Positions 29,175-32,981 of a stretch of 39,440 bases of DNA are shown here, in pieces. Position 1 is the stretch's first letter; each line of letters starts with the position of its first letter. A program made the position numbers and the translations under genes. The notes beneath the pieces were generated by a model that was not told the origin of the DNA, did no database searches, and saw only the letters and a list, made by a program, of their open reading frames with translations. Source of the stretch: an uncultured Oscillospiraceae bacterium (lineage in GTDB: Bacteria > Bacillota > Clostridia > Oscillospirales > Oscillospiraceae); NCBI GenBank assembly GCA_947628805.1, contig CANRBG010000012.1, positions 1 through 39,440 of the forward strand, in the 5' to 3' direction.

Positions 29175-30089
29175 TTGGCAAATTGGTTGGAAGTGACCAT
29201 CCCCGCCCACGGGGACCCGGAGGCCCTGTGCCAGCAGCTGACCGATATGGGGCTGGAGGGCTTCGTCATCGAGGACGAGCGGGATTTTAAGAGCTTTCTG
29301 GAAAACAACACCCAGTACTGGGACTTTGTGGACGACAAGCTGGCCCAGTCCCTGTCTGGGGCCAGCCGGGTAAAGCTGTGGCTGGCGGACGACGACACCG
29401 GCCGGGCCATTCTGGCGGAGATGCAGAAAAAGGGCCTGGCCCCGGAAAGCCGCCCGGTGGCGGATTCGGACTGGGAGAACAACTGGCGGGACTACTACAA
29501 ACCCGTGGAGGCCGGGGAGAAGCTGGTGATCGTGCCCCAATGGCATGATTACGCCGGTGACCGGACCCCCGTGCGGCTGGACCCGGGGCTGCTGTTCGGC
29601 ACCGGGGACCACCCCACCACCCGGATGTGCCTGGCGGCGGTAGAGAAATACGCTGGGCCCGGGAAAAAGGTCTTGGACTTGGGCTGCGGCAGCGGCATAC
29701 TGGGCATCGCCGCGGCGGTGCTGGGGGCCGGACCTGTCGTGGCGGCCGACGTGGATGAAAAGGCCCCGGAGGTGGTCCGGGACAACGCCAAATTGAACGG
29801 GGTGGAGGACGCAATTTCCATCCTTGTGGGGGACGTGATCGCCTCGGCCAGCCTGCGGGCCAGGCTGGGCGGGGGCTACGATCTGGTCCTGGCCAACATC
29901 GTGGCGGACGTGATCATCCCCCTAGCTTCCCATGTAAAGGGCTTTCTGGCCCCGGAGGGGGTCTTCGTCTGCTCCGGGATCATCGACGGCCGGCAGGACG
30001 ATGTGAAGGCCGCTCTGGAGGCCGCCGGCCTCCGGATCGAGAACACGGACCACATAGACGAGTGGACCTGCTTTGTGTGTAAGGCATGA
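29175..30089 (+). CDS. prmA: Ribosomal protein L11 methyltransferase
   Basis: The AdoMet-dependent enzyme trimethylates ribosomal protein L11. The 304-residue product shows LDPGLLFGTGDHPTTRMCL (about 135-153), the AdoMet motif VLDLGCGSGILG (166-177), AADVDEKA for the ribose-binding acid, and LANIVADVI (the catalytic N-I/P-like loop). Translation probably begins at TTG 29175, which follows AAAGGAAG by 6 nt and yields the usual MANWLEVTI N-terminus. It overlaps the HAD gene by 4 nt. Confidence 0.93.
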   Translation: MANWLEVTIPAHGDPEALCQQLTDMGLEGFVIEDERDFKSFLENNTQYWDFVDDKLAQSLSGASRVKLWLADDDTGRAILAEMQKKGLAPESRPVADSDWENNWRDYYKPVEAGEKLVIVPQWHDYAGDRTPVRLDPGLLFGTGDHPTTRMCLAAVEKYAGPGKKVLDLGCGSGILGIAAAVLGAGPVVAADVDEKAPEVVRDNAKLNGVEDAISILVGDVIASASLRARLGGGYDLVLANIVADVIIPLASHVKGFLAPEGVFVCSGIIDGRQDDVKAALEAAGLRIENTDHIDEWTCFVCKA

Positions 30090-30694
30090 TAAAAAACATC
30101 ATTTTTGATATGGGCAACGTGCTCATCCGCTTTGACCGGGAGCTGTTCATCCGGCGGCTGGGCCTGCCGGAGGCGGACGGGAAGCTTTTGATGGAGCAGG
30201 TTTTCCTGTCGGTGGAGTGGGTCCAGATGGACTGGGGGGAGCTGACCGATGAGCAGGCGGCGGAGAGCATATGCCGCCGTCTGCCGGCGCGGCTGCACCA
30301 GGCCGCCCGGCGGCTGGTCCTGGCCTGGGAACAGCCCATACTGCCCATGCCGGGCATGGAGGCGCTGATCGGGGAATTGAAGGCGGCGGGCTATGGGATA
30401 TACCTTTTGTCCAACGCCAGCTTCCGCCAGCGGGATTACTGGCCGGACATCCCCGGCGCGGCGCTCTTCGACGGCGGGATCCTGTCCTGTGAGGAGGGCT
30501 GCGTCAAGCCGGAGCGGGCCATCTATGAGGCCCTGTTGACCCGGTACGGCCTGACGGCGGCGGAGTGCTTTTTCGTGGACGACGTGCCCGTCAACGTCCA
30601 GGGCGCCATCCGCTGCGGCATGGCCGGGGCCGTGTTTCTGGGTGACACGGACGCCCTGCGCTTACATATGCGCCAGGTAGGCATCAAAATATAA
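30086..30694 (+). CDS. HAD-superfamily hydrolase, YihX-like
   Basis: The 202-residue protein has motif I FDMGNVL (nucleophile D8, with Gly rather than Asp at +2, as in the GNV subgroup that includes the sugar phosphatase YihX), motif II LLSNAS, motif III Lys in EGCVKPERAIYE, and motif IV FFVDDVPVN. A helical cap lies between motifs I and II. It is translationally coupled to prmA (ATGA). A sugar-phosphate substrate is likely but unproven. Its terminator, starting 2 nt after the stop, is split by an insertion sequence. Confidence 0.9.
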   Translation: MIKNIIFDMGNVLIRFDRELFIRRLGLPEADGKLLMEQVFLSVEWVQMDWGELTDEQAAESICRRLPARLHQAARRLVLAWEQPILPMPGMEALIGELKAAGYGIYLLSNASFRQRDYWPDIPGAALFDGGILSCEEGCVKPERAIYEALLTRYGLTAAECFFVDDVPVNVQGAIRCGMAGAVFLGDTDALRLHMRQVGIKI

Positions 30695-30695
30695 C

Positions 30696-30716
30696 AAGAC
30701 CGGCGCGGACATTATC
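30696..30716 (+). terminator. Left half of the split terminator of the HAD gene, plus target duplication
   Basis: AAGACCGGCGCGG (30696-30708) is one stem arm. ACATTATC (30709-30716) is the original loop and the left 8-bp target duplication of the IS. Joined to 32048-32060 it gives a 13-bp stem with two G-U pairs, followed by T on the plus strand. Confidence 0.82.
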
Positions 30717-30748
30717 TGAAATAGTCAAGAGATAGTAGACACAAAAGT
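30717..30748 (+). repeat. IS left terminal inverted repeat
   Basis: TGAAATAGTC opens the repeat and GATAGTAGACACAAAAGT (30731-30748) is its best conserved part. It is matched by the complement of 32008-32039 with 24 of 32 identities. Confidence 0.8.
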
Positions 30749-30754
30749 ATGAGG

Positions 30755-31624
30755 TTAGGCCACCAGTTCTGTACGAAACAGGACTGGTGGTTTTCCGTTC
30801 AGCTTGCGGACAGGTCGGACGAAGTTGAAATAGTGGACGCATTCGGCCACAACAGCATGCAGATCGTCTCTCTCCCAGAACCGGAAGTGTTTGCGGAGCG
30901 TATCCTTGAATCGTCCCCAGAAACTCTCCATCACCGCATTGTCCCGAGGCACCCCAGCCCTTGACATACTCTGCAGGACGTTGTATTGTGTAAGCAGGTT
31001 GCAATAACCGGCAGATGAGTACTGTACGCCTTGGTCGCTGTGCAAAAGGACTTGGCGCCCGGTACTCTCTGTTCGTTTCAGGAGCCTTTCGGCGGGACGC
31101 ATGACCAGAAGATTGTCAAAGGAGTCGCTCAGTTCCCACTCCAGGACCTCGTTGTTGTACAGGTCCAGGAAGGCAGCGAGATAGTGCCACTTGCCACGGT
31201 ACTTTATGTAGGTGACGTCCGTGACGATTTTCTGCATGGGAGCGTCTGCCTTGAAGTCTCGGTTCAGCAGATTGGGATAGCGGGTGTGTTCCAGGCCGGA
31301 GTATCTGTTTTTAACTCTGCGGCAGTAGCCGTGGATATGCAGTCTTTGCATGGACTTGAATACACTGGGGTCGCTCACCACAAGGCCAAACTGGAGGATG
31401 AGCATATCCCGGATGGAGCGGTAGCCCATCATGGGATGGTGAGCGTGGATGTCGCTCACATAGGCGTCCAGGACCTGCTGGGATTGTTCATAACGGTTGA
31501 GCTTTCCGTCTCGTTGGCGCCATTTGTAATAGCCGCTGCGGGATACGCCGTATATACCGCAAAGCTCCGTTACAGAGTGCTTGTCTGTCTGCCGCTGTAT
31601 CTCGGCATACATCCGTTGGATCAT
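30755..31624 (-). CDS. IS3-family transposase OrfB (integrase core)
   Basis: The 289-residue DDE transposase has the catalytic triad D136 (VTDVTYI), D197 (LHSDQGV) and E233 (NAVMESFWG), spaced D(60)D(35)E as expected for IS3. An N-terminal HTH_21-like region (SVTELCGIYGVSRSGYYKW) precedes the rve core. It overlaps orfA by 4 nt. In IS3 elements the active OrfAB fusion forms by frameshifting at this overlap; here the ATGA arrangement could also allow coupled re-initiation. No frame damage is seen. Confidence 0.95.
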   Translation of the reverse strand: MIQRMYAEIQRQTDKHSVTELCGIYGVSRSGYYKWRQRDGKLNRYEQSQQVLDAYVSDIHAHHPMMGYRSIRDMLILQFGLVVSDPSVFKSMQRLHIHGYCRRVKNRYSGLEHTRYPNLLNRDFKADAPMQKIVTDVTYIKYRGKWHYLAAFLDLYNNEVLEWELSDSFDNLLVMRPAERLLKRTESTGRQVLLHSDQGVQYSSAGYCNLLTQYNVLQSMSRAGVPRDNAVMESFWGRFKDTLRKHFRFWERDDLHAVVAECVHYFNFVRPVRKLNGKPPVLFRTELVA

Positions 31625-31962
31625 TTTCTTCGGGCATCGCCCTCCTTTCGTGCGTTGCGTTGTTTTAAACGGGCTACCTCCGCTTCCTTTACCGCCAGTT
31701 CCCGTTTGAGCAACTCAATTTGATATTGGAGCTGCTCTGTGTAGGTAAGCTCCTTGCGGCGTTCGTAACGAGCCAAGGGATTACCCGGTTTCTTCTTTGG
31801 CTCCAGCCCTGCCTCGCCCTCGGTCTGGTATTTCTTTACCCACTCCGAAACACGCTGGTGCGGTATCTCCGGTTCCCATGCGGAAGCAGACCTGCCCGCC
31901 AGCACCTCTTTCACGATTGCCAGCTTTTCTTCCTTGCTCCGTATCGTATACTTCCTTGTCAT
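31621..31962 (-). CDS. IS3-family transposase OrfA (DNA-binding)
   Basis: The protein of about 113 residues has an N-terminal helix-turn-helix (KLAIVKEVLAGRSAS to HQRVSEWVKKY) and a C-terminal leucine-rich coiled coil (YQIELLKRELAVKEAEVARL) for dimerisation, the usual OrfA layout. ATG 31962 lies 12 nt after AGGAGG; a GTG at 31971 is in frame but too close. It binds the IS ends together with OrfB. Confidence 0.92.
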   Translation of the reverse strand: MTRKYTIRSKEEKLAIVKEVLAGRSASAWEPEIPHQRVSEWVKKYQTEGEAGLEPKKKPGNPLARYERRKELTYTEQLQYQIELLKRELAVKEAEVARLKQRNARKEGDARRK

Positions 31963-31996
31963 GTTTCTCACACCCCTCCTTCATTCTAGCACAAGA

Positions 31997-32030
31997 AGAT
32001 GGTAGGCACTTTCGTGTCTACCATCTTTTT
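31997..32030 (+). terminator. Terminator hairpin inside the right end of the IS
   Basis: Arms 31997-32009 and 32014-32026 pair over 13 bp with one G-U and a TTTC loop, then TTTT. One arm is part of the terminal inverted repeat. On the plus strand it would stop transcription entering or leaving the IS, in effect replacing the host terminator that the insertion split. Confidence 0.7.
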
Positions 32031-32039
32031 ACCACAGCA
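32008..32039 (+). repeat. IS right terminal inverted repeat
   Basis: ACTTTCGTGTCTACCATC (32008-32025) and the outer part ending CAGCA (32035-32039) form the complement of the left end. The right target duplication ACATTATC follows at 32040-32047. Confidence 0.8.
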
Positions 32040-32062
32040 ACATTATCCTGCGTCGGTCTTTT
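32040..32062 (+). terminator. Right half of the split terminator
   Basis: ACATTATC (duplicated loop) is followed by CTGCGTCGGTCTT (32048-32060), the partner of the arm at 30696-30708, and by T residues. The split arms are now 1.3 kb apart, so the structure cannot work in its original form. Confidence 0.82.
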
Positions 32063-32072
32063 GATCTGTTTT

Positions 32073-32981
32073 TCAGTCCACTTCAAACCGGAATGTGCCG
32101 GTGGTCCCCGGCGCGGTGTCGGGGGCATACCGGACGGAGACCGTGTACGTGCCCGGCAGCAGAAACAGTGTGGACCGGGCCCGCAGGTCTTGGCCGCCGC
32201 CCATGGTGTCCAGCACCCTGCCGCTCTTATTGGATACGGTGATCTCCACATTGGCGTCGGCGTCGGCCTCCACATCCAGGGTGTAAAAGTCCGGCAGAGG
32301 CACGCGCATCTCCCAGGTCCAGGGGGGCAGGTCCGGGTCATAGACGTACTCACTGGTGGAGAACGCATCATAGTGGTTCAGGCCGAACACCAGCCCCACT
32401 GCCAGCAGCGCGAACACCACCGCAAAGCACCAGCGCATGCTCTTCCGGGACCTGCCGGCTGTTTCCGGACGGCGGATGCGCCGGGCGCCTATCAGGATCA
32501 CGACGCCCAGCAACAGAGAGGCCAGGGACATGGCGATGTTGACTATGCTGGGGCGGCCCAGGAGAACGAACGAATTCAGCGCCGCGCATATGAGCTCAAC
32601 GGTGCCAAAGACGTACCCCAGACGGCTCCAACGGCCCGCCATATCCTGTACGGACGATTCGTCGGTGTAGATCTCATATTCCGCCGGGGGCAGGGTGGGG
32701 TCATATTTTTTGCGGAAAAAGTGCCAGCCGTTGAAGGTGTCGCTGACGAACTGCCAGCCCTGCTCGGCGAAAGTGTCCCGGTAGCGGGCCGGGTCGTCGA
32801 TATGCTGGTCGTAGTCCAGGGCGTAGCGGTAGCGCACACTCTCGTCCCGGTAAAAGACGCTGTGGAAGCACCCGCCCTTTTCCAACTGCCAGCCCTGGTC
32901 CGACAGGGCGTTCAGGTCCTCTATCTCCCGCCGGTACTCCCAGGCGGGGTACATGGCAAAGCGATGCTTTTTATTCCGCAT
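32073..32981 (-). CDS. DUF2812-domain membrane protein
   Basis: The 302-residue protein starts with a DUF2812 domain (FAMYPAWEYRREIEDLNALS to WHFFRKKYDP, about 8-95), whose repeated W/F-G-W pattern is clear (QGWQLEKGGCFHSVF and QGWQFVSDTFNGWHFF). Three membrane helices follow (about 122-140, 145-165, 183-203), then an extracytoplasmic beta-rich domain (about 215-302). It overlaps the PadR gene upstream by 11 nt. PadR-DUF2812 pairs are frequent in Clostridia; the protein is thought to be an envelope component under PadR control. Confidence 0.85.
   Translation of the reverse strand: MRNKKHRFAMYPAWEYRREIEDLNALSDQGWQLEKGGCFHSVFYRDESVRYRYALDYDQHIDDPARYRDTFAEQGWQFVSDTFNGWHFFRKKYDPTLPPAEYEIYTDESSVQDMAGRWSRLGYVFGTVELICAALNSFVLLGRPSIVNIAMSLASLLLGVVILIGARRIRRPETAGRSRKSMRWCFAVVFALLAVGLVFGLNHYDAFSTSEYVYDPDLPPWTWEMRVPLPDFYTLDVEADADANVEITVSNKSGRVLDTMGGGQDLRARSTLFLLPGTYTVSVRYAPDTAPGTTGTFRFEVD

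Follow-up and report, generated by a model that had tools for sequence, protein, structure and literature searches.

The IS3-family element in the window (the whole analysed stretch, 39,440 nucleotides of an uncultured Oscillospiraceae bacterium, contig CANRBG010000012.1) lies at the apex of a terminator-like hairpin, and we highly suspect that the IS3-family transposase picks its sites by shape, the preferred place being the apex of a hairpin-forming palindrome, mostly a terminator-like one at a gene end. The hairpin-apex position of the window element is not a coincidence. The support is sequence-based and consists of the apex position itself, targets with almost no bases in common, duplications of 4 to 11 bp centred on the dyad in the closest relatives, and inward-reading, terminator-like hairpins at the element's ends. 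Structure-guided target choice, as the original prediction had it, is borne out by the wider family, with 28 of 39 copies at a strong apex compared with 8% of random positions, and by a second set of copies with 9 of 15 compared with 2.3%. The target hairpins are putative terminators, as judged from their sequence.

The element and its rebuilt target site

The split hairpin follows a HAD-like hydrolase gene (open reading frame, plus strand, 30086..30694, stop codon 30692-30694). On the plus strand, its 5' arm AAGACCGGCGCGG occupies 30696..30708, and the first copy of the target duplication, ACATTATC, which is the entire loop, occupies 30709..30716. The element itself (1,323 bp, minus strand, 30717..32039) has the tips TG...CA and is followed on the plus strand by the second copy of ACATTATC (32040..32047) and by the 3' arm CTGCGTCGGTCTT (32048..32060) with a short T-run behind it. 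The neighbour beyond, an open reading frame of 302 aa, is convergent (minus strand, 32073..32981). Within the element, two minus-strand reading frames with domain matches were found, namely OrfA (116 aa, helix-turn-helix, 31621..31971, match to HTH_28) and OrfB (289 aa, DDE catalytic domain, 30755..31624, match to rve), and the stop of the former overlaps the start of the latter as ATGA. Transposases of the IS3 family are made by programmed frameshifting from OrfA into OrfB.

OrfB matches the NCBIfam model transpos_IS3 with an E-value of 6.5e-73, and it scores 246 bits against NCBIfam NF033516, where the cutoff is 160, which makes it a transposase of the IS3 type. Residues D136, D197, E233 and K240 are invariant in seven aligned sequences, and we take them to be the catalytic residues. 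Among solved structures, OrfB had no match at E<=0.001. Elements of the IS3 family carry tips of the form 5'-TG...CA-3' as imperfect inverted repeats and are about 1.2-1.5 kb long; the window element agrees with this in length and in its tips, which match each other at 19 of 26 positions. A duplication of about 3-5 bp is also usual for the family, as a common trait and not a strict rule, and the 8 bp found in the window lies outside that size. The IS3-family label rests on the transposase.

When the element is excised and one ACATTATC removed, a 13-pair hairpin is rebuilt in which the 8-nt duplication is the whole loop. All 13 pairs of the arms form (11 Watson-Crick and 2 G-U), and the site folds at -22.7 kcal/mol (z -5.7), with none of 200 shuffles folding as well; the T-run at this hairpin is short, with four T. 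The original prediction of an insertion exactly in a hairpin loop, with the loop as its duplication, thus agrees with the sequence to the base, for both copies of ACATTATC and for both arms. Its remark that 8 bp is long for the family is correct as well, since relatives outside the clade defined below with a duplication of at least 3 bp show 3-5 bp in 32 of 32 cases.

It had also been proposed to look for an empty site. HAD matches (E<=1e-20) were present in 10 other same-genus genomes of the 34 searched besides the window's own, and in 4 of these 10 relatives (L163, L165, L166 and L168) an uninterrupted strong hairpin begins within about 15 nt past the HAD stop, and the 80-nt folds reach -37 to -41 kcal/mol. 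The hairpin arms of L168, compared by eye, have most bases in common with those of the window. In two further relatives (L167 and L169), a palindrome lies further downstream, before what by eye is seemingly the same convergent neighbour, and the other 4 of the 10 had no such hairpin in the 110 bases examined past the HAD gene. A similar convergent gene end beyond the hairpin was seen by eye in 6 of the 10 same-genus relatives.

Insertion sites of the clade and of the wider family

For the closest relatives, we defined a clade as copies with at least 59% OrfB identity, gathered from contig and whole-genome searches, of which 11 unique copies, the own genome's two included, could be scored at both ends; 10 further distinct clade loci, L031 among them, were left out of scoring as an end was missing or degraded. 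The own genome has only one other near-full-length match to the element, 96% identical, whose 9-bp duplication CCGTCACGG is centred exactly on the apex of a -37.0 kcal/mol hairpin. The insertion point coincides with the hairpin apex in 9 of the 11 scorable copies. Duplications of at least 3 bp were found in L001 (8 bp), L002 (9), L006 (10), L033 (11), L034 (4), L046 (4) and L069 (11), and all seven are at the apex with an offset of 0 to 0.5 nt, at site energies of -16.4 to -37.0 kcal/mol and with a T-run in every copy except L034. L023 and L027 are at an apex with no duplication, while by the energy metric described below no hairpin is rebuilt at L032 and L045, and the unscored L031 shows neither duplication nor hairpin by eye. 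The check that had been suggested, namely to excise other copies and fold their sites, supports the original interpretation: the apex hairpin is rebuilt in 9 of 11 scorable clade copies, but a duplication equal to the loop, as seen in the window, is not the rule. The duplication often includes paired bases flanking the loop, and the rule is that it is centred on the dyad. We also observed a clade copy (L023/L036) from which about 380 bp are missing inside OrfB, with both ends kept, at an apex site and with no duplication.

The clade was confined to the own genome among 299 genomes drawn from the phylum (E<=1e-60), and in viral contigs the pattern of its left tip had 0 matches. In end calling, TG...CA tips were required, and the ends of L034 were set by hand to the clade tips; a rule permitting TA tips was dropped, as it misplaced the window copy's own ends. 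The ends of L099 and L137 were mis-set, so that both are counted among the copies with no duplication although a duplication and a hairpin are otherwise visible, in L099 only with the tips re-read by eye.

In the wider family, end calling succeeded for 62 unique IS3-family copies and failed for 63 locus entries, which include repeats of the same place; 39 of the 62 have a duplication of at least 3 bp. The energy metric asks for a hairpin of at least 6 pairs, with its apex no more than 4 nt from the duplication centre and E<=-12 kcal/mol; the controls consisted of 1925 positions picked at random in the flanks, 1909 located directly behind stop codons and 452 sites with swapped right flanks. With thresholds that for this first set were picked after inspection of the data, 28 of the 39 copies pass, compared with 8.0% of random positions, 9.6% after stops and 10.0% of swapped flanks, and the remaining 11 of the 39 miss the threshold. 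When a T-run on either side is also required, the count is 27/39, compared with 0.7%, 1.7% and 9.3%, respectively. A looser metric gave 30/39 against 14.2% at random, 14.5% near stops and 23.2% with swapped flanks, while a strict gapless-stem metric gave 20/39 against 4.9%, 5.4% and 6.4% in the three controls. The strict metric passes only 5 of 7 clade copies, and the window's own site fails it. It was dropped and replaced by the energy metric because it missed visible hairpins with a mismatch or a long loop and undercounted T-runs within A/T-paired stems.

The metric was then fixed and applied to a second set, consisting of 45 viral-contig loci retrieved with three transposases of the first set (19 with no call, 2 duplicates and 24 new copies, 15 of these with a duplication). 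Here, 9 of 15 copies pass, or 8 of 15 when the T-run is added; among the 750 control positions, the corresponding rates are 2.3% and 0.13%. Within one complete genome (G078), L111, L129, L131 and L132 pass, and L130 clearly misses the threshold although its transposase row is identical to that of L129, which is in a hairpin; L128 lies 4 nt from a hairpin apex and shows a 1-bp repeat only, and L133 is uncalled.

Among named elements and plasmid or phage copies, an apex with E<=-12 was found for plasmid elements of Priestia aryabhattai, P. megaterium and Bacillus subtilis, for an element of Paenibacillus phage Diva, for one IS150 copy and one IS600 copy, and for a Citrobacter freundii plasmid element whose repeat is 1 bp long. 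No strong apex is present at the sites of the IS3, ISKpn37, ISEcB1 and ISKpn8 copies. Two copies were folded and left unscored: the ISEc52 copy has no hairpin centred on its site and a 1-bp repeat only, and the IS911 copy has a weak interrupted hairpin about 3 nt off centre, the whole site folding at -10.3 kcal/mol. The copy L147 is 100% identical over 1,430 bases to annotated IS1397, and its site rebuilds a 13-pair hairpin with the 4-bp duplication at the apex. From its sequence, we take this palindrome to be a REP.

Shape, sequence and known target habits

Aligned by their apices, the 28 passing sites hold only 3.5 bits of sequence information across 28 columns and 26 distinct duplications, but 79-100% pairing from the fourth pair outward; therefore, the feature that the targets share is the fold. 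Of all 39 copies, 28 have a T-run on the OrfB side and 28 have one on the opposite side, with 21 counted in both groups, so there is no preference of orientation.

It could be argued that insertion is random and that the copies seen are those that survive, since gene ends tolerate insertion and hairpins are common there, which would be selection and not targeting. Intergenic insertions should indeed harm less, and hairpins at E<=-12 are somewhat commoner just after stops than at random positions (9.6% vs 8.0%). Tolerance, however, predicts sites anywhere between genes, whereas at 26 of 36 sites the centre of the duplication is no more than 1.5 nt away from the apex of the strongest hairpin in the vicinity, compared with 3.6% of 221 controls (36 of the 39 copies have a strong hairpin near the site, and the 221 control positions likewise have one), and the 28/39 passing the energy metric far exceed the 9.6% just after stops. 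We consider this explanation highly improbable. The flanking arms could also belong to the element as extended terminal repeats, as they are inverted repeats immediately outside the tips, but they vary between sites while the tips are conserved, and hairpins free of the IS stand at the orthologous place in relatives, so that we give this idea practically no chance.

A more serious objection is that the transposase reads the bases of normal double-stranded DNA, palindromic or otherwise, and not an extruded structure. Dyad-centred duplications would likewise result if protein and site were both symmetric, and the target specificity of IS1397 and ISKpn1 is ascribed to their transposases in the available part of PMC1525189. 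The apex-aligned sites, however, share no more than the 3.5 bits stated above, with nearly every duplication distinct, and a fixed duplex spacing predicts otherwise than the 4 to 11 bp seen in one clade; reading of the duplex is thus rather doubtful. Alternatively, hairpins could be hit as single-stranded DNA for other reasons, namely lagging-strand synthesis or transcription at terminators, given that terminators are transcribed and that hairpins form readily on single strands. We regard this as unlikely, with the T-runs showing no bias in side and the IS1397 copy lying in a palindrome that is presumably of the REP type.

Regarding our preferred reading, the choice of site by shape, a transposase complex with two-fold symmetry would share its axis with an extruded hairpin or cruciform, and the IS ends would be joined at symmetric but variable positions on the extruded target. 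Duplications that vary in length around a fixed centre would be easier to explain by joining at an unpaired, flexible apex than by a fixed stagger on duplex DNA.

IS1397 and ISKpn1 are reported to target REP sequences, and ISPsy8 to enter a predicted REP hairpin on its axis of symmetry, duplicating 3 bp (PMC1525189); this source, in its available part, deals with REP sequences, and terminators as targets were not found in that part. The comparison with IS1397 that the original prediction drew holds, as L147 is centred on its palindrome and groups with IS150 in the tree. IS1397 of E. coli is like the window element in belonging to the IS3 family and in its apex insertion, but the OrfB identity is only about 36%, and its known target is one repeat family, whereas the window clade is found in unrelated hairpins with duplications up to 11 bp. 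In the tree described below, as drawn with an uncertain root, IS150 comes out in the same main group as the window clade, and its copy, with a duplication of 3 bp, occupies the apex of an interrupted 17-pair stem, a single copy that does not establish a target habit. The nearest functional parallel in print, as far as the available parts of these sources go, is that of group IIC (bacterial class C) introns, which are mobile and insert at Rho-independent terminators or other inverted repeats (PMC7923331, PMC3522654), recognising the DNA stem-loop by shape and sequence (PMC10190682). According to the same partial texts, they differ in being ribozyme retroelements that insert downstream of the stem-loop and mostly not at its apex, while group IIC-attC introns can insert into the attC stem-loop.

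In open-access literature (titles and abstract openings, with subscription papers mostly outside this scope), no paper on terminator targeting by the IS3 family was found among the matches listed, and in the available part of a paper on an IS150-like IS3 element of Clostridium (PMC6211511) the word "terminator" occurs in a reference title only. Terminators as targets, together with long, variable, dyad-centred duplications, are apparently new.

In a tree of 46 OrfB proteins, the window clade and L072 form a group at 100/100, while IS3, IS911, ISEc52, ISKpn37, IS600 and L081 come together at 100/99; the midpoint root serves for drawing only. The 40 rows outside the IS3/IS911 group, which include IS150, IS1397 and the window clade, are labelled 29 with a hairpin, 4 weak and 7 none, and the IS3/IS911 group has a hairpin in 1 of 6 copies (IS600), the label "none" for IS911 and ISEc52 having been set by hand and not by scoring. 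The hairpin label clusters on the tree no more strongly than shuffled labels (115/500 as low). Since the label is unclustered, and the root and long branches are uncertain, an ancestral hairpin-apex habit is no more than plausible.

To hypothesize further, and only tentatively, elements on the IS150 side of the family, in Clostridia, Bacilli and Enterobacteria alike, could by default go for hairpin apices, chiefly those of intrinsic terminators, and the REP habit of IS1397 would be a special case of this. In the window clade there would then be no fixed cut spacing, and dyad-centred duplications of 0 to 11 bp would record strand joining on an extruded hairpin or cruciform, while the inward end terminators would have evolved to stand in for the terminator that the insertion destroys, so that the element is nearly neutral at any landing site. 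REP targeting by a few IS previously seemed a curiosity tied to one repeat family; if a preference for shape, with terminators as targets, is common to a large IS group, it would explain spread at low harm, with many safe sites per host. If true, the insertions would be a natural record of hairpins extruded in living cells, and with the elastic dyad-centred duplications of the clade, transposition becomes a way to test whether palindromes form cruciforms in vivo. Given its preference for gene ends, such a transposase could also serve as a gentle insertion tool.

Hairpins of the element's own ends and related small elements

The right end was said to carry a terminator hairpin of its own, and this hairpin is real: on the plus strand it folds at -24.7 kcal/mol (z -8.1), while read inward (minus strand, 31996..32027, upstream of OrfA) it has -17.5 kcal/mol. 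Its inward T-run is weak in the window (TTCTT), and the plus-strand T-run is stronger. A second hairpin, absent from the original prediction, stands at the left end (plus strand, 30759..30791, -23.3 kcal/mol); it also reads inward, is followed by TTTT and overlaps the last OrfB codons. The idea of an own terminator is strengthened because a terminator-like hairpin is thus present at both ends. With at least 6 pairs, E<=-7 and a T-run behind as the criterion, an inward hairpin was found at both ends in 11 of 11 scored clade copies, compared with 26 of 258 interior windows, and in 43 copies of all groups it was found at the OrfA end in 18, at the OrfB end in 28 and at both in 15. Compensatory changes were counted at 3 of 16 predicted pairs of the OrfA-end stem (12 rows) and at 5 of 18 of the OrfB-end stem (21 rows), with the structures predicted from the same rows and kinship uncorrected; since codons of OrfB extend into the OrfB-end stem, its conservation is in part that of coding sequence.

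Because the host genes converge, a transcript from either side meets an IS hairpin soon after entry. The IS hairpins may replace the split terminator and so restore termination, and they would also keep host transcription out of the transposase gene. Wide seeding of genomes with the end hairpin of the IS was considered and rejected, as an exact match to the core pattern occurred in 3 of 110 genomes, the own genome included.

Near positions 1500-1540 of L010, L012, L013, L014 and L017, solitary hairpins resemble the OrfA-end hairpin of the IS, with no IS tips seen by eye, and those of L010 and L013 seem to be placed after a stop codon like an ordinary terminator; such hairpins may be remnants of the IS or terminators that the host has adopted. 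In L004 (1501-1542), 42 bp match the left tip of the clade and lie beside a reading frame resembling an IS256-type transposase, with an apparent half-terminator on the other side. L049 (right) and L062 (left) have no duplication and a small palindrome at the flank edge, and they may have arisen when two copies lying in different hairpins recombined. As a general origin of duplication-less copies, recombination between two copies was set aside, with 13 of 46 flanks ending in a small palindrome compared with 16.4% (p 0.03), which supports it weakly.

Two mini-elements were also seen. One of 54 bp (L015:1494-1547) has a 2-bp repeat and no rebuilt hairpin. The other, of the same make and 55 bp long (L019:1492-1546), consists of two IS-type ends head to head and has a 6-bp duplication, CTCAGG, at the apex of a terminator-like hairpin between two convergent reading frames, which suggests that the ends alone are enough for targeting.
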